This document shows positions 2,718 through 25,084 of a DNA stretch of 25,084 nucleotides, in pieces. The notes under the pieces were generated by a model. The model was not told the origin of the DNA and searched no databases. It saw only the letters and a list, made by a program, of their open reading frames with translations. Every line of letters starts with the position of its first letter. The first letter of the stretch is position 1. This stretch comes from a virus, in the IMG/VR virus record IMGVR_UViG_3300041411_000234, positions 1-25,084 of that record. One strand, given 5' to 3'. A program made the position numbers and the translations under genes.

Positions 2718-3637
2718 TGCTTTATGAACGTGCATATGTCCTGACAATTGGAAACTATAAGACAGGGGATGGGATTCAACTTAAGAGCGACGGATGGGAC
2801 GAAGAGTCACAGTCTTTCACTCGCGGCGTCAACATTGCCTTCTCTTTCGCTAAAGACTCTGACAACAGTCGTACAACAAACAGTGCTGAAATCTCTGTAT
2901 TCAACCTCTCTAGGGATCAACGCAAGCTTATTGATGGAGACTTCACAGAACTAACCTTAAGCGTTGGCTATAAAGACACCGGGGCTCAGCTCATGGTGCA
3001 AGGTAATGTAGTTGAAATGTCCCATGAGAAATCTGGCCCTGACTGGATTACAACAATCAAAGTAGGAGAAGCCTACAGCGCCCTTAACCACAGAAAAGTG
3101 AAGGCGTTAGTGTCTGCTGGCAAGACTATCGAAGACTGCATTGATGTTGTCCGTGAAGCGATGGGTGGAGCTATTACCAAAGGCACTTACAGGGGCGATG
3201 GATTGAAGAAGCCTGTTGTCTCTGGAATGTCTCTACACGGAACACCGAAAGAACAGCTCATCCGTCTTTGCAAGGCTAATGACCTTGAATGGAACATTAC
3301 AGGCAACGTCTTAAATATCACCGGTAAGAATCAGCCATCCAGTAAATCTACAGTTAATGCTACGGTGTTGAATGAGGACACTGGACTAATCAATGTTCCT
3401 TACTACACATCTGCCGAAGGAAAGAAGCTACCAAAAGATAAGACTCGTAAACGCGGCGTCAAGTTTGAAGCTCTTTTGAATACTTCTCTAGTTCCCGGCT
3501 CAATCGTCAAACTAGAAGACCCTGACATTAGTGGTTTCTTCCGCGTTAACACATCCCATTTCTCGGGTGCGTATCGTGGAGATACTTGGCAAGTCGAGTG
3601 CTTCTGTTCTGAAGTCAATGCAGAGGAACTAGTCTAA
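2714..3637 (+). CDS. Baseplate hub protein (gpD/gp27-like)
   Basis: 307 residues, starting MMLYERAYVLTIG, overlapping the Dit-like stop (ATGA) and itself overlapped by the spike ATG (TAATG). The beta-rich sequence with FNLSRDQRKLI near residue 65, a central GTPKEQLIRLCKANDLEWNI segment and a C-terminal RGVKFEALLNTSLVPGS is characteristic of phage hub proteins that hold the spike at the tail tip (late control D/gp27 type). Length is in the usual 300-360 range. Position between Dit-like and spike supports the call. Confidence 0.75.
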   Translation: MMLYERAYVLTIGNYKTGDGIQLKSDGWDEESQSFTRGVNIAFSFAKDSDNSRTTNSAEISVFNLSRDQRKLIDGDFTELTLSVGYKDTGAQLMVQGNVVEMSHEKSGPDWITTIKVGEAYSALNHRKVKALVSAGKTIEDCIDVVREAMGGAITKGTYRGDGLKKPVVSGMSLHGTPKEQLIRLCKANDLEWNITGNVLNITGKNQPSSKSTVNATVLNEDTGLINVPYYTSAEGKKLPKDKTRKRGVKFEALLNTSLVPGSIVKLEDPDISGFFRVNTSHFSGAYRGDTWQVECFCSEVNAEELV

Positions 3638-4386
3638 TGCGAGCCCCATCTAGCGAAGACACACTAAATAGTATGATCGATCAGAAGCAAGCACGGATGT
3701 TTACATCTATGCCTGCTGTTATCACAGGCGTTAACTTGGATAGCATGAGCGTTAACGTGCAACCCGCCATTAATGAACTGTATTCTGATGGTGAAGTTGA
3801 AGAGTTTCCAGAAATTCTAAGCGTTCCACTTATCATGCCGGGTAGCCGTAAAGCTCTCGTAAGTTTCCCTGTTGAGGTTGGAGACACAGTAATGCTGATC
3901 TTTGCCCAACGCTCTATGGACAACTTCAAGCTAGGCAACGGACGTCCTACGCAGCCTAACGACTATCGCAAGCACGACATGCAAGATGCTATTGCGATTC
4001 CCGGCCTATTCACTTTCGGTAACAGTGCTAACAAGCCGTCTAGTCGTAAGTGGTCACACAATACGAAAGACGTTGTGATTGTTGCCAACATCGGCGGCAA
4101 TGAAGCTGAGATTCGAATTGCTGAATCTGGCGATATCACAATGAACACTGAGTTCAAAGTGAATGTAAACGCCAAAGACATCAACCTGACCGCAACCAAC
4201 GCTATTGCTATCAAAGCCGCGTCTATGTCTATCGAAGTCCCAACCACTACATGGCTTGGTGATTACTCCCAGACTGGCAACTACGACCTTACAGGCGAAG
4301 CAACATTCAACGGTATTGCGTTCTCTACACACCGTCACACAGGCGTTACACCGGGTAGCGGCACATCCGCTGGCCCTATCGCTTAA
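3637..4386 (+). CDS. Baseplate central spike, Gp138-like OB domain with His-rich apex
   Basis: 249 residues. About residues 20-110 match the N-terminal OB-fold of Gp138-type spikes (MPAVITGVNL, SVNVQPAINELYSDG, PVEVGDTVMLIF). Then comes a repeated beta region that would form the trimeric beta-helix (IRIAESGDITMNTEFKVNVN, DINLTATNAIAIKA). The C-terminus HRHTGVTPGSGTSAGPI is the HxH apex that coordinates a metal at the tip of gpV-like membrane-piercing spikes. The ATG overlaps the hub stop; a later in-frame ATG (MIDQKQ) is a weaker alternative start. One of the surest functional calls in the window. Confidence 0.85.
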   Translation: MRAPSSEDTLNSMIDQKQARMFTSMPAVITGVNLDSMSVNVQPAINELYSDGEVEEFPEILSVPLIMPGSRKALVSFPVEVGDTVMLIFAQRSMDNFKLGNGRPTQPNDYRKHDMQDAIAIPGLFTFGNSANKPSSRKWSHNTKDVVIVANIGGNEAEIRIAESGDITMNTEFKVNVNAKDINLTATNAIAIKAASMSIEVPTTTWLGDYSQTGNYDLTGEATFNGIAFSTHRHTGVTPGSGTSAGPIA

Positions 4387-4398
4387 ACCCTCTTATAC

Positions 4399-4414
4399 GG
4401 GCTCTCACGAGCCC
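4399..4414. other. Intergenic hairpin after the spike gene
   Basis: GGGCTC, loop TCAC, GAGCCC. There is no U-tract, so it is more likely an mRNA processing or stability element than a terminator. The same six-base stem recurs after the gene at 20041 (20562-20578). Confidence 0.55.
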
Positions 4415-4444
4415 ACAACACTATATCCAATACAAGGAACAACA

Positions 4445-4819
4445 ATGATGACTCTACAACCAATCTTTAAAACCACCTCCCCCGAATATCTGACCCTTAT
4501 CCTGCAAACACAAAAAGCGATTAACAAGGCCAAGGAAGAGGTAACAGAAGCAACATCGATCGACTTCAAACAAATCGCATTTGATTATCGCGTGAACGAC
4601 CTTTACAAACTATACCCGAATACCTCACCCGAGTTCCGTGCTCAAATTGTAAAGTCAATGGGTGATGTTGATGCTCTAGGCTATGCCAAGGAGTTTTTCC
4701 GCATCAAGAAGCAGGTTGATATCTTGAAAGCTTATGAAGAGTCCCAGCTGGTAGAAGTGAAAGCTGAGCCTATTGATCGTACACGAGAAATCCTTGAAGC
4801 GAAGTACGGTAAGAAGTAA
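4445..4819 (+). CDS. Hypothetical helical protein, possible tail assembly chaperone
   Basis: 124 residues from tandem ATGs at 4445/4448 (AAGGA upstream). An open frame extends upstream to 4205 but lies inside the spike gene. The sequence is mostly helical and charged (TQKAINKAKEEV, SPEFRAQIVKSMG, YAKEFFRIKKQVDILKAYEESQ). Its stop overlaps the next ATG (TAATG). Two small genes ahead of a tape measure are commonly chaperones made by frameshifting. The next frame is the -1 frame, but no convincing slippery heptamer is visible, so this remains a positional guess. Confidence 0.6.
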   Translation: MMTLQPIFKTTSPEYLTLILQTQKAINKAKEEVTEATSIDFKQIAFDYRVNDLYKLYPNTSPEFRAQIVKSMGDVDALGYAKEFFRIKKQVDILKAYEESQLVEVKAEPIDRTREILEAKYGKK

Positions 4820-9992: not shown

Positions 9993-10003
9993 CTCCGCTG
10001 CAA

Positions 10004-10630
10004 TCACTTCACTTCCAAGAAGCCCCACGAACCGCTACTCTGTAGAACGCCGTTCTCTACAACATATTTCTTCCCCTTTGGCGAAAGCTCAACACTATTA
10101 CCTAAGTAATAATTTCTATGAATTTGCAGAAAACCATCATCTAAGAGTTGGTTAACGGCATTATCAACAATCAAGCTATCTAGGCCAAGCGAGGTGTAAA
10201 TATCTTTAAGATTTACAGATTTCTCAAACTCCATCACATTTGCAAGAAAGGCTAATACCTGTTTCTGCTCACTAGTTACATTGGACGCCAGCACAGGCAT
10301 AAGTTGAGCCATTGAGACAGGAACAGGCTCCGTAGGCTTCTGCCTTTCAAACTTCTGATTTGTTGCAATCACGGCAGCTCTAATCACCACACCAGCGATG
10401 AACAACGCAGCAATAATCACTAGCCAAAGCTGAACTCCCACAGGCGCTACTAACATCGTTGGTATATTCAGAACGAACTGGATGATTCCCTGTACAAACT
10501 CTGACTTCCAATACTCTGTTAAAGCTACACCAAAGACGACTAAGAACAGTGCCCCGGCACCACTTAAGAACTTACCGCCCATCTTGAATATCCCCGCCCC
10601 TGTCGTATCCCCAGAGTATAGCGATGCCAA
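10004..10630 (-). CDS. Membrane protein with C-terminal winged helix, copy A
   Basis: 208 residues from a TTG; an internal ATG (residue 17, MGGKFLSG) preceded by a G-rich stretch is a possible alternative start. Two transmembrane segments: LSGAGALFLVVFGVAL (about 22-37) and LWLVIIAALFIAGVVIRAAV (about 68-88). Residues 115-200 form a MarR-like winged helix (SEQKQVLAFLANVMEF, LIVDNAVNQLLDDGFLQIH, LSPKGKKYV). The protein at 15157 has the same plan and a recognisable N-terminal match. A membrane-tethered DNA-binding sensor or exclusion factor fits the architecture, but no family name is known to me. Confidence 0.6.
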   Translation of the reverse strand: MASLYSGDTTGAGIFKMGGKFLSGAGALFLVVFGVALTEYWKSEFVQGIIQFVLNIPTMLVAPVGVQLWLVIIAALFIAGVVIRAAVIATNQKFERQKPTEPVPVSMAQLMPVLASNVTSEQKQVLAFLANVMEFEKSVNLKDIYTSLGLDSLIVDNAVNQLLDDGFLQIHRNYYLGNSVELSPKGKKYVVENGVLQSSGSWGFLEVK

Positions 10631-10689
10631 GGCAAAGAATCACCCTCCCCTCGAGGATACAAAGTAATCCGCTCTAAATCGCTGAGAGC

Positions 10690-11130
10690 CACAGCCCGCA
10701 AGGGCTAGAGGGTGTTTTCGACTGACATATTTCACATGGTAAGCGACAGCTTACAGCCTGACCCCCTCTGAACTACGTTCAAGGTTTAGCACGGGTAAGG
10801 CGTGAGCCTTGAGAGTATCTCTTTTGAGAGTATCCCTCTTTAAGTGTTTCCTCTTGAGTAGGTTGCTGATGGATTCACTAATCCATCCATCAGCTCTAGA
10901 AGGATTGTCCCTAGCTGACTGCAAGTCAGGAGGTATTCACTCTGTGTCGGTAACGACACAATATAGCCCTTCTCAATGACTCAAACAGACGCTAACAACC
11001 TGATAAAAACTATCGGTTATCTAGCTCGAAACCGTAGGTTTCATAGAACAACCTTGTGACTGAGTGAATCCCACTATATGGGACATATAGAAGTGTGAAC
11101 ATCATACTCTATAAGGGTTTGAGTATGACA
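10690..11130 (+). ncRNA. Candidate large structured RNA, ten consecutive hairpins
   Basis: The first half of a 1,030-base gene-free stretch contains ten perfect or near-perfect hairpins: AGCCC-GCAA-GGGCT (10693-10706), GTAAGC-GACA-GCTTAC (10739-10754), TGAAC-TAC-GTTCA (10769-10781), AAGGC-GTGA-GCCTT (10797-10810), CTGATGGAT with ATCC/ATCAG (10866-10893), CTGACT-GCA-AGTCAG (10915-10929), TGTGTCG-GTAA-CGACACA (10943-10960), GAAACC-GTA-GGTTTC (11028-11042), CTATAT-GGGAC-ATATAG (11074-11090) and CATACTC/GAGTATG (11103-11127). Three loops are GNRA tetraloops when read on the plus strand, which argues for a plus-strand RNA. Bounds are approximate and no known RNA family was matched. Confidence 0.5.
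10693..10732. repeat. Hairpin plus CTGACATATTT element, copy A
   Basis: Hairpin AGCCC-GCAA-GGGCT, then GTTTT and ACTGACATATTT (10721-10732). It belongs to a three-copy family with 15788-15833 and 24898-24930: hairpin, T-run, then (A/C)CTGACAYATTT. Confidence 0.5.
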
Positions 11131-11591
11131 AATGCGGGACAACTACTAACACCACTGACTAACTGAAAATGCATGTAATACCCCTCACACCCCTTTTCAC
11201 TCGCTCTTTACCCTCTTCTACCCCTCTTCTGTTAAGCAAGTGCTTTTCTCACAGTCAACACATATTTTCACTTTTTCATAAAATGTGCATGTGAGGTCAA
11301 GGCGAGTCGCATAGGTCAAGGTGAGTTTCACATTCTCGACAAACGGTTAATGAAGCACGCCAGTAGCCCTTTCAGGTCTTTAGACCAATCCCTTCAATTT
11401 GCTGTCTCGCACTCACTCTAGGGGAGATTCTAATCCCCGCAATATCGCTCAAGCCCTTGTGTAACGTGGCCTGTAGCTTGGTTTAGCTGACGCATTCCGC
11501 ACGATTGAGTGCGTACAGGGTGAAAGGTTCTAGAAAGTAAAGGTATTGACGATGCGTGCAATGTCTGAATGTTAATACTCAACACACAACC
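11131..11591. other. Non-coding stretch with pyrimidine tract and tandem repeats
   Basis: No gene is supported. It holds a pyrimidine-rich tract (about 11180-11232), a weak AAGC/GCTT hairpin with pyrimidines (11235-11250), two tandem 17-base repeats spaced 19 bases apart beginning GGTCAAGG (11295-11311, 11314-11330), a GGTC-TTTA-GACC dyad near 11373-11384, and GGGGAGATTCTAATCCCC (11421-11438), whose core recurs at 24853. The minus-strand frame at 11430-11654 has no binding site and is not called. Confidence 0.5.
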
Positions 11592-11663
11592 CATAACATT
11601 GTGTAGACGGACGTCGCAGTGTGTTATGACTTCATGTAGAATACTTTTACACACAACGTTATG
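11592..11663. promoter_or_regulatory. Inverted repeats upstream of the resolvase, candidate recombination site or operator
   Basis: CATAACATTGTGT (11592-11604) and ACACAACGTTATG (11651-11663) are inverted copies with one mismatch, with a related GTGTGTTATGA between them. A TAGAAT (about 11636) may be a -10. Serine resolvases usually have their res site next to the gene with several inverted subsites, which this resembles. Confidence 0.4.
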
Positions 11664-11675
11664 AAGGACTCACTC

Positions 11676-12392
11676 ATGAAGCTTGTAGCCTACTACCGTG
11701 TTTCTACTCGTGCTCAAGGTGAGAGTGGTCTAGGTCTTGAAGCACAGAAGGCTTACGTAGAGACAGCCTGCAAGACTCATGGTTGGGAAGTGGTGGCTGA
11801 GTACATTGAGACTGTAAGCGGCTCCATCGCTCCCCTAGAGCGTCCTGAGTGTGCTAAGGCACTGGCTCATCGGAATGCTCAAGGTGAGCCCCTGCCTGTC
11901 GTAGTGGCTAAGCTGGATCGCCTATCTCGTGACGTTGAACACATCGCATCCTTGATGAAACGTGTGTCTCTCAAGGTGGCGACCATGCCCCAAGCTGATA
12001 ACTTCCAACTTCACTTGTTTGCAGCTCTGGCTGAGCAGGAACGAGCTTTCATTTCCCAGCGTACCAAGGAGGCTCTGCAAGCCCTCAAGGAACGTGCTAA
12101 CGCTGGATGTGTGGAGAGTATTCAGAAGATTGCTAACCGTTCTGCTGTGAAGCCTGAAGGCTCTAAGAACCTGGCCCTAGCTACAGCTCGTGCAGCACGT
12201 AGTGACAAGGCCAATGCCTTTGCCGTGACAGTAGAAGCAACCATTGCCCTTGCTCAGTCCAAGGGACATAGCACACTTAATGCTATTGCTGAGTTCATGA
12301 ATGATCGTAAGGTCTTCACAGCCCAAGGTGGAGAGTGGTCTTCTATGCAGGTGAGCCGCGTTCTGAAGCGTTTAAACATTGATGCTGCATGA
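11676..12392 (+). CDS. Small serine recombinase (resolvase/invertase family)
   Basis: 238 residues from the ATG at 11676, seven bases after AAGGA; the ATG at 11661 lacks a binding site. Catalytic pattern YYRVSTRAQ with nucleophile Ser10, then AKLDRLSRDVEH (the conserved D-R-x-S-R) and EQERAFISQRTKEAL before the long helix. The C-terminal domain (STLNAIAEFMNDR, WSSMQVSRVLKRL) is the usual recombinase helix-turn-helix with T-x-x-G-G-x-W-S. It probably resolves dimers or inverts or integrates a segment; inverted repeats lie just upstream. Function as an active recombinase is likely, target unknown. Confidence 0.85.
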   Translation: MKLVAYYRVSTRAQGESGLGLEAQKAYVETACKTHGWEVVAEYIETVSGSIAPLERPECAKALAHRNAQGEPLPVVVAKLDRLSRDVEHIASLMKRVSLKVATMPQADNFQLHLFAALAEQERAFISQRTKEALQALKERANAGCVESIQKIANRSAVKPEGSKNLALATARAARSDKANAFAVTVEATIALAQSKGHSTLNAIAEFMNDRKVFTAQGGEWSSMQVSRVLKRLNIDAA

Positions 12393-23398: not shown

Positions 23399-23608
23399 AT
23401 GCCCCACGTTTCTAAACGTGCTGGTCAGTCTCAGATTTGTGTCTGTTCGCATTGCAATAGCGAATTCCTGACTCGACGTAAACAACCCTTCTGTTCTGCC
23501 AAGTGCAAACACGAATCCGGTTACACATCCCAAGCAAAACAAAACACATCCCAGCCTATCCTTGAAGGAGCTATTCAGCATGACATCCCAAACCAAAACC
23601 GTTGTTAA
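23399..23608 (+). CDS. Small zinc-finger protein (69 aa), FCS-like
   Basis: GGAGGA seven bases before the ATG. CVCSHC supplies the first pair, FCSAKC the second, with a basic linker between (EFLTRRKQP). The end overlaps the start of the 23580 gene by 29 bases, suggesting coupled translation. The finger is very like that of the next gene (CKHCKKRF, FCSREC), a likely tandem duplication. Confidence 0.65.
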   Translation: MPHVSKRAGQSQICVCSHCNSEFLTRRKQPFCSAKCKHESGYTSQAKQNTSQPILEGAIQHDIPNQNRC

Positions 23609-24770
23609 AACTTCTGCTACACGTCGCCCGACTTGCAAGCACTGTAAAAAACGTTTCACCACTTCTGTAAAGACAGCAAAGTTCTGCTCTCGTGAATGCA
23701 AACAGGCTGGCGCCAACGCCAAGGTCAGAGTTGACCCAATGGACAAGGCAATGAAGTGTGCATTCTTCTACTACCTGGCCCGTGAGTGTATGCGTGCTGG
23801 TACGCTGGAAATCCTACGGGGTCACACCGTTGAAACCCTCTCTGCTCTACACGAACTCTACAAGGCGAACATGCGTTACAACGGCTACGGCGACCGTAAC
23901 GACTACGAGCTGTCTCACATTGCCCCGGTTAAAGGTCACGCCTTCATCGGTCTTCTGTTCGCTGACAACCTTGTCTCTGCCCTTAAAACCTTGAACCGCT
24001 CTCACGGAACAAAATACTTTGGTCACGGTGCCTCTATCAGCCGTGCCACCCTCGACACAAAGCACGCAGTGAACAAGGAGCTTGAGCAAGAGTCTGAAGT
24101 TGTTACTCGTGTTCTCGCCTACATCGGCAAGGCAACCATCGTAGAAACAATCAAGGTGTGCAAGATCAAGCCTGCCCAACGTTGCCAGCTAACACAGTGG
24201 ATCGCCAACCACTACGACGAAAGCAACCCTGAACACGTCGCAGCCCTTCCTAACGTTGAAATGATTGAAACCCTCAAGACCAAGGCACTCCAGAACATCA
24301 AGACTCTGATGACTGGTAAAGACGCTAGCGGCTACTTCATGTGTGCCGCATCCAGTGTTGAAGTTGTGATGTCTCGTGAACTGACCCGCCTCTCTGAAAT
24401 TCGTCCTGAACTCGCCGTCTATGCATATGCCTTTGAAGACGCCATCACTAGCACTCGCCGTGACGGCACTACTTACGTTACTGGTAGTCTGTTTACCACG
24501 CACCATGCACAGATGTTATTTGACGTGCTGCACGGTAAGTCGATTGCTGTTATGGGCGACACACTAGAAATGGTTATCGCTGAAAACACCGCCTACAAAC
24601 ACATCCACTACACAAACGGTTGGGCTGAAGCCTTTGACACTTCGCTTGCTGCATTCAAAGCGTCTGTTGTTGCTCCTGTTCGTGCTGCTGTAACTATCGA
24701 AGACTTCAACATGGCTCGTGGTGCTGTTATTTCTATCCCAATGAACCAATACAGCGACACACCTTTCTGA
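23580..24770 (+). CDS. Zinc-finger protein with HNH-like segment, 396 aa
   Basis: ATG at 23580 after AAGGAG. Residues 19-40 are an FCS-type zinc finger (Cys19, Cys22, Cys36, Cys40). About residues 110-142 (YELSHIAPVKG, FIGLLFADNLVSALKTLNRS) resemble the His-Me finger of HNH nucleases: S/D-H-I-x-P-x-x-G, G-L-x-x-x-D-N-L and L-N-R. The remaining 250 residues are unrecognised and mostly helical. A DNA-processing or packaging nuclease is plausible, but catalytic activity is not proven since the first residue of the motif is Ser rather than Asp. Its length and zinc finger could also suit a replication or regulatory role. Confidence 0.6.
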   Translation: MTSQTKTVVKTSATRRPTCKHCKKRFTTSVKTAKFCSRECKQAGANAKVRVDPMDKAMKCAFFYYLARECMRAGTLEILRGHTVETLSALHELYKANMRYNGYGDRNDYELSHIAPVKGHAFIGLLFADNLVSALKTLNRSHGTKYFGHGASISRATLDTKHAVNKELEQESEVVTRVLAYIGKATIVETIKVCKIKPAQRCQLTQWIANHYDESNPEHVAALPNVEMIETLKTKALQNIKTLMTGKDASGYFMCAASSVEVVMSRELTRLSEIRPELAVYAYAFEDAITSTRRDGTTYVTGSLFTTHHAQMLFDVLHGKSIAVMGDTLEMVIAENTAYKHIHYTNGWAEAFDTSLAAFKASVVAPVRAAVTIEDFNMARGAVISIPMNQYSDTPF

Positions 24771-24874: not shown

Positions 24875-24881
24875 TCGCCTA

Positions 24882-24930
24882 CAAGTCACGTTTTATAAGG
24901 GCTACACCCTGTTTTAACCTGACACATTTA
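24882..24930. repeat. Hairpin plus CTGACAYATTT element, copy C
   Basis: AGGG-CTACA-CCCT (24898-24910), GTTTTA, then ACCTGACACATTTA. Third member of the family seen at 10693 and 15788. Confidence 0.5.
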
Positions 24931-24957
24931 AGTGTGCGACATGCATTGAAAGACATT

Positions 24958-25084
24958 GCCATTAGAGTAGCTTCACGTTTTGGGAAGCTGTACATGGCAA
25001 CCTCCTTATTCTGTGGGGTCAAGTAGGACGCCTTAAATTTTAGGGCTCCTTCTTCACCGAGCACAGACACCACTTTCGACATGA
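24958..25084. repeat. 127-base exact direct repeat, right copy at the window edge
   Basis: Identical to 497-623 and stops at the last base of the window. Joining the copies would give a 24,461-bp circle. Confidence 0.9.

Follow-up and report, generated by a model that had tools for sequence, protein, structure and literature searches.

A gene-free stretch dense in hairpins

A virus record of 25,084 bases, analysed here in full and referred to as the window, contains about 1 kb without a plausible gene between a divergent open reading frame (ORF) and the gene for a small serine recombinase (Table 1). The original prediction read the hairpins in this interval as a possible large structured phage RNA. 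Do these hairpins exceed chance, are they kept in relatives, and do they act as RNA or as DNA? Both the gap and the run of hairpins were confirmed. No ORF of at least 60 aa starts within 10668–11429, and about 550 bases (10640–11180) hold no plausible gene and are dense in small hairpins. Eleven lie within 10693–11108 when a stem of at least 5 Watson–Crick pairs and a loop of 3–6 nt are required. With stems of at least 5 bp and loops of 3–5 nt there are 10 perfect stems, against 1.2 ± 1.0 (maximum 5) in 300 dinucleotide shuffles. The element reaches slightly past its originally predicted range, through a predicted closing helix that encloses the first hairpins.

Three of the loops are GNRA tetraloops (GCAA at 10693, GUGA at 10796 and GUAA at 10943), all on the plus strand. 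They had been described as restricted to that strand, which is correct for the window, since no GNRA complement stands among its listed loops. Predicted RNA folding gave z values of −4.5 to −4.8 for the plus strand and −3.0 to −3.3 for the minus strand, a modest contrast in overall stability. Neither a recognisable promoter for the window's own array nor a terminator for the array was found; the TAAGCAA..GCTTTT element was considered as an intrinsic terminator and dropped as not convincing. This element is retained in several loci while the surrounding sequence diverges and is perhaps an operator, regulator or recombinase site. The 7-mer TTAGCAC, found immediately 5' of a hairpin, is by itself not rare in the window. 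A role as a CsrA/RsmA sponge was rejected, as only one loop in the window contains GGA.

Table 1. Coordinates of the hairpins and flanking features in the window (loops in brackets).
Feature	Position	Strand	Remarks
Divergent ORF, 208 aa	10004–10630	−	Opposite side of array; replaced in L001 by a 42%-identical version
Predicted closing helix CACCCTC (10641–10647) / GAGGGTG (10708–10714)	10641–10714	+	MFE and centroid fold, single sequence
Hairpin AGCCC[GCAA]GGGCT	10693–10706	+	From hairpin listing
Hairpin GTAAGC[GACA]GCTTAC	10739–10754	+	L002 keeps TAAGC[GACA]GCTTA
Hairpin TGAAC[TAC]GTTCA	10769–10781	+	L002, same position, different stem: TGAAAGC[TTC]GCTTTCA
TTAGCAC	10786–10792	+	Immediately 5' of hairpin in window, L001, L002 and L028; also in L004 array
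Hairpin TAAGGC[GTGA]GCCTTG	10796–10811	+	L002 counterpart TAAAGC[GAA]GCTTTA
Hairpin GATGGATT[CACT]AATCCATC	10868–10887	+	
Hairpin CTGACT[GCA]AGTCAG	10915–10929	+	
Hairpin TGTGTCG[GTAA]CGACACA	10943–10960	+	Related hairpins in L033, L035, L065 and L261
Hairpin CTGATA[AAAAC]TATCGG	11000–11016	+	
Hairpin GAAACC[GTA]GGTTTC	11028–11042	+	
Hairpin CTATATG[GGA]CATATAG	11074–11090	+	L028 counterpart CTATATG[GTA]CATATAG
Hairpin AGTGTGA[ACA]TCATACT	11092–11108	+	One G-U pair
TAAGCAA..GCTTTT element, TAAGCAAGTGCTTTT	11233–11247	+	Between array and recombinase; kept 3' of arrays L002, L028, L035, L037, L065 and L004
Small serine recombinase (Resolvase domain)	11676–12392	+	Usual downstream gene of array in relatives

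The host element

The record probably represents a whole circular element of about 25 kb, because the ORF of an antirepressor (KilAC) continues across the joined ends (1–696 and 24879–25084) and the closest relatives, L001 (24,974 bases) and L002 (25,189 bases), are of the same size. The genes include tail, baseplate, large serine integrase, small serine recombinase and antirepressor genes; among the ORFs scanned with PHROGs, Pfam or NCBIfam, none was recognised as a terminase, portal or capsid gene. Pseudomonas is indicated as the host by a baseplate hub that shares 50% identity with proteins of Pseudomonas phages and by recombinase relatives that lie mostly in Pseudomonas genomes. The window also encodes a 402-aa protein (23562–24770) that has a zinc-finger-like CxxC motif at its N terminus and also an HNH-like motif, H-IAPVKG-N-N-H. 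In L028 and L033 this protein is conserved immediately upstream of the array; phage records and the PDB had no match to it.

Related arrays

With the recombinase as search handle and one genome per species, about 15–20 comparable hairpin arrays were found in viral contigs and Pseudomonas genomes, mostly with a small serine recombinase no more than ~1.3 kb downstream. Those reached through the recombinase are L001, L002, L004, L028, L033, L035, L037, L065, L212, L213, L218, L261, L262, L266 and L268, of which L037, L218, L262 and L266 were classed as arrays only because of their hairpin density and the resemblance of their spacers. L028 is from P. mandelii OWC5. L232 and L233 were reached through DNA similarity, and both lie near other serine resolvases. 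Many further recombinase loci have no array, and in L004 the array is parted from the recombinase by an IS630-like transposase ORF (3559–4659), so they are separable. Neither the window region nor those of L028 and L213 had a BLASTN match in the phage or plasmid collections. Searching viral contigs with the pattern CTATATGGNACATATAG returned L001, the near copy of the window, as the sole relative, the other matches seen being coding or unrelated; the pattern TGAACGGACGTTCA matched about as often as expected by chance.

The array copy in L232, which belongs to the same genome as L213, lies ~2 kb from a retron-type reverse transcriptase (292–1473; best PADLOC match RT_V). A link between the arrays and type V retron reverse transcriptases was set aside, this single case being treated as neighbouring cargo.

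Conservation of the stems

Sequence is barely alignable between groups of arrays, and the hairpins are retained. The L001 array is 98% identical to that of the window and is uninformative on this point. The window and L002 have GTAAGCGACAGCTTAC in common, and two of their hairpins flank a common TTAGCACGG while the stems have changed. Helix H4, aligned in L212, L213, L268, L232 and L233 and hand-trimmed around the hairpin at a conserved GAA(T) flank, is paired in 30/30 cells, and four of its six pairs have changed on both sides. Its covariation score is 0.83, compared with 0.28 in shuffles, and none of 500 shuffles matched either the paired fraction or the score. Two further helices are paired in 96% of cells and contain five pairs with changes on both sides. 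Controls in which the partner was slid paired in 13–40% of cells for H4 and in 13–52% across all three helices. Double changes were likewise more frequent than with slid partners (3 vs 0.3 for L212/L213; 8 vs 1.0 for L213/L268). Several of the statistics in this analysis combine related sequences, which exaggerates their independence. No clear signal was seen in global alignments of L028/L033 and L232/L266, and the strongest covariation comes from a distant subfamily, not from the nearest kin of the window.

Diverged relatives thus retain hairpins while the letters change, which argues that the hairpin shape itself is under selection. Compensatory changes of the kind that mark structured noncoding RNAs are found in the arrays. 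The original prediction is partly supported. The outcomes named as refuting it did not occur: homologues keep the stems through such changes, and no coding gene crosses the region. From the sequences compared, we conclude that this is a real, conserved hairpin-chain element and apparently an undescribed one.

RNA or DNA

The element is probably an undescribed virus-made RNA. We propose that a family of temperate Pseudomonas phages and related mobile elements would produce a noncoding RNA of ~0.5–0.7 kb, read in the direction of the adjoining recombinase gene and folding mainly as a chain of 8–12 separate short hairpins, with the RNA as the functional form. To the array being a noncoding RNA of recombinase sense, folding as a hairpin chain, we assign a probability of about 0.5. 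Because nothing but the hairpins and a handful of short motifs is retained, the RNA might serve some factor that senses hairpin shape, with little demand on sequence, as its multivalent platform or decoy; this is the least certain step and a doubtful one.

Near-consensus sigma-70 promoters in the sense orientation lie at the 5' edge of four arrays. Those of L212, L213 and L268, three of the four and all from one subfamily, read TTGACA-N17/18-TATACT/TATGCT/TAGAAT; that of L002 reads TTTACA-N17-TATAAT and lies ~7 nt before the first hairpin. Matches at 10 of 12 promoter positions occur in array loci at 0.14 per kb per strand, and no antisense promoters were found at the arrays. Loops counted in recombinase sense are biased (GNNA 26 vs TNNC 7; GNRA 11 vs TYNC 2), the strand and orientation of some arrays being uncertain, and hairpins are slightly more stable on that strand. 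Orientation by the GTGTCG hairpin instead of the recombinase was rejected, as the loops then conflict with the flanks and the TTAGCAC motif; with it, GNNA:TNNC becomes 22:12 and G·T versus A·C stays as it was. Strand bias of GNRA loops had been taken to indicate RNA rather than DNA-level palindromes. Across relatives this argument becomes weaker: GNYA loops are as common as GNRA loops, which counts against RNA, as do the triloops, which show no strand bias (18 GNA, 22 TNC).

Other observations also count against RNA, including the missing promoter and terminator noted above, the derivation of three of the four promoters from one subfamily and the distant source of the best covariation. Among 6-bp stems in the arrays, 56 are perfect, 13 have one G·T and 11 one A·C, so that G-U is not preferentially tolerated on one strand; outside the stems there are 46 A·C and 32 G·T. 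Stems of E. coli rRNA, RNase P RNA and tmRNA, used as RNA controls, gave 1 perfect, 8 G·T and 3 A·C; with G·U allowed and a loop of 4, RNA controls gave 30 against 17.5 expected. Modules are also inverted between and within loci (L033 vs the window; L028 vs L035).

Stems without a preference for G-U over A-C make DNA hairpins a serious alternative, in which the array would act in single-stranded DNA as a priming or complementary-strand start site (cf. single-strand initiation sites and plasmid sso) or as a fold-back platform for proteins. The nearly universal perfection of the stems, the occurrence of modules in both orientations, the predominance of loops of 3–4 nt and the common c(GNNA)g, c(GNAB)g and c(GNA)g motifs all fit this explanation. 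So does C-G closing in 50/94 hairpins, as expected of GNNA and GNAB loops, whose stability in DNA as well has been reported (PMC8373063). However, the neighbourhood of the array yielded no recognisable replication-initiator gene, and a replication origin was dismissed because GC skew has no origin-like turn at that point. GNNA loops also have a strong strand bias, and promoters point into four of the arrays. We know of no single-stranded DNA step for these elements. Taking promoters, loop bias, G·T/A·C counts and inversions together, we regard action in single-stranded DNA as possible but rather unlikely, and structured RNA as the more likely reading. Still more doubtful is the fuller version, with the chain kept as shapes under little sequence constraint, partly independent of orientation, and acting as DNA folded in single-stranded form, within a mobile element that resembles a tailed phage and beside a serine recombinase.

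The perfect stems, inverted modules and fast turnover might also be the by-product of a mutational process, such as template switching at quasi-palindromes or the spread of small hairpin units, that makes and keeps perfect hairpins in an unconstrained intergenic region; similar hairpins are indeed repeated, with TGAACGTCCGTTCA-like copies several times in L035. Against this, the rest of the window has at most a weak excess of 3–4 nt hairpins over shuffles, hairpin positions are retained over large divergence with a set optimum of loop length and strand-biased loops, and the arrays recur upstream of the same gene. We therefore judge a by-product improbable. Double-stranded palindromes bound by dimeric regulators or the recombinase would suit the location just upstream of the recombinase gene and the conserved TAAGCAA..GCTTTT element. 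In 14 arrays (7.8 kb), however, inverted repeats with spacers of 2, 3, 4 and 5 nt numbered 20, 38, 38 and 13, against about 5–6.5 expected (about 6–7 at 3 nt and about 5–6 at 4 nt), and there was no excess at spacers of 0–1 or at least 7 nt. An excess confined to 2–5 nt indicates single-strand hairpins rather than operator or protein-binding palindromes and, with half-site sequences that are not conserved, makes palindromes of this kind very improbable.

Comparison with known systems

ROOL and GOLLD are phage-borne noncoding RNAs of 0.5–0.8 kb with many hairpins, covarying stems and an open function, often but not universally near tRNA islands (PMC12286853). The original prediction likened the hairpin run to them, and the likeness of setting stands: the array is also phage-borne, noncoding and multi-stemmed, with covarying stems. 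A large ornate RNA of their kind is not shown. Membership would call for a conserved multibranch fold with pseudoknots and oligomer contacts; in the arrays only local helices are supported, from few alignable sequences, and no multibranch or pseudoknot core was established; the stems are short separate hairpins with little G-U, and sequence and module order turn over fast. The window matches no Rfam covariance model, including those of ROOL, GOLLD and OLE, at gathering score (10000–11700 not even at E 5), and contains no tRNA. In 14 relative loci the sole Rfam match was a tRNA in L028. Because the covariance models are unmatched and the window lacks a tRNA, we do not file the array under ROOL or GOLLD; a new family of hairpin-chain elements is the best description for it.

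Among DNA elements, the single-strand initiation sites and single-strand origins of plasmids consist of short stable hairpins clustered in noncoding DNA, and it is as folded single strands that they function. The array is likewise a noncoding cluster of short hairpins, but it is much longer, no initiator was recognised, and promoters mark the 5' edge in some cases. The REP/BIME palindromes found in bacterial genomes are short hairpins with a conserved spacer that occur in both orientations, features shared by the array, and have many copies scattered over the host genome. In contrast, array stems are not conserved in sequence, and the recurrent hairpin CTGAACGTCCGTTCAG was found only inside array loci of six Pseudomonas genomes, with one 1-mismatch exception, not as many scattered copies.

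Few large structured noncoding elements are known from phages, and their functions are open. The family described here is apparently absent from Rfam 15 and recurs in prophages of culturable Pseudomonas; its architecture, separate perfect hairpins in a chain with fast sequence turnover, is unlike that of described ornate RNAs. Carriers include cultured, genome-sequenced strains, so that transcription and function are directly testable. The comparisons of G-U with A-C, of loop lengths and of loop motifs offer a simple means of asking if RNA or DNA is the working form of a hairpin-rich region.

Some sequence is also shared within the arrays. In L035 (3667–3974) two inverted modules of ~100 bases flank a GTGTCG hairpin and give rise to long-range complementarity (AAACAAGAAAC / GTTTCTTGTTT), which is retained in L261. 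Shared sequence around TACAGGCCACG (~20–40 nt) lies 5' of hairpins in L028 (3910–3990), L033 (3620–3730), L035 (4550–4640), L232 and L266.
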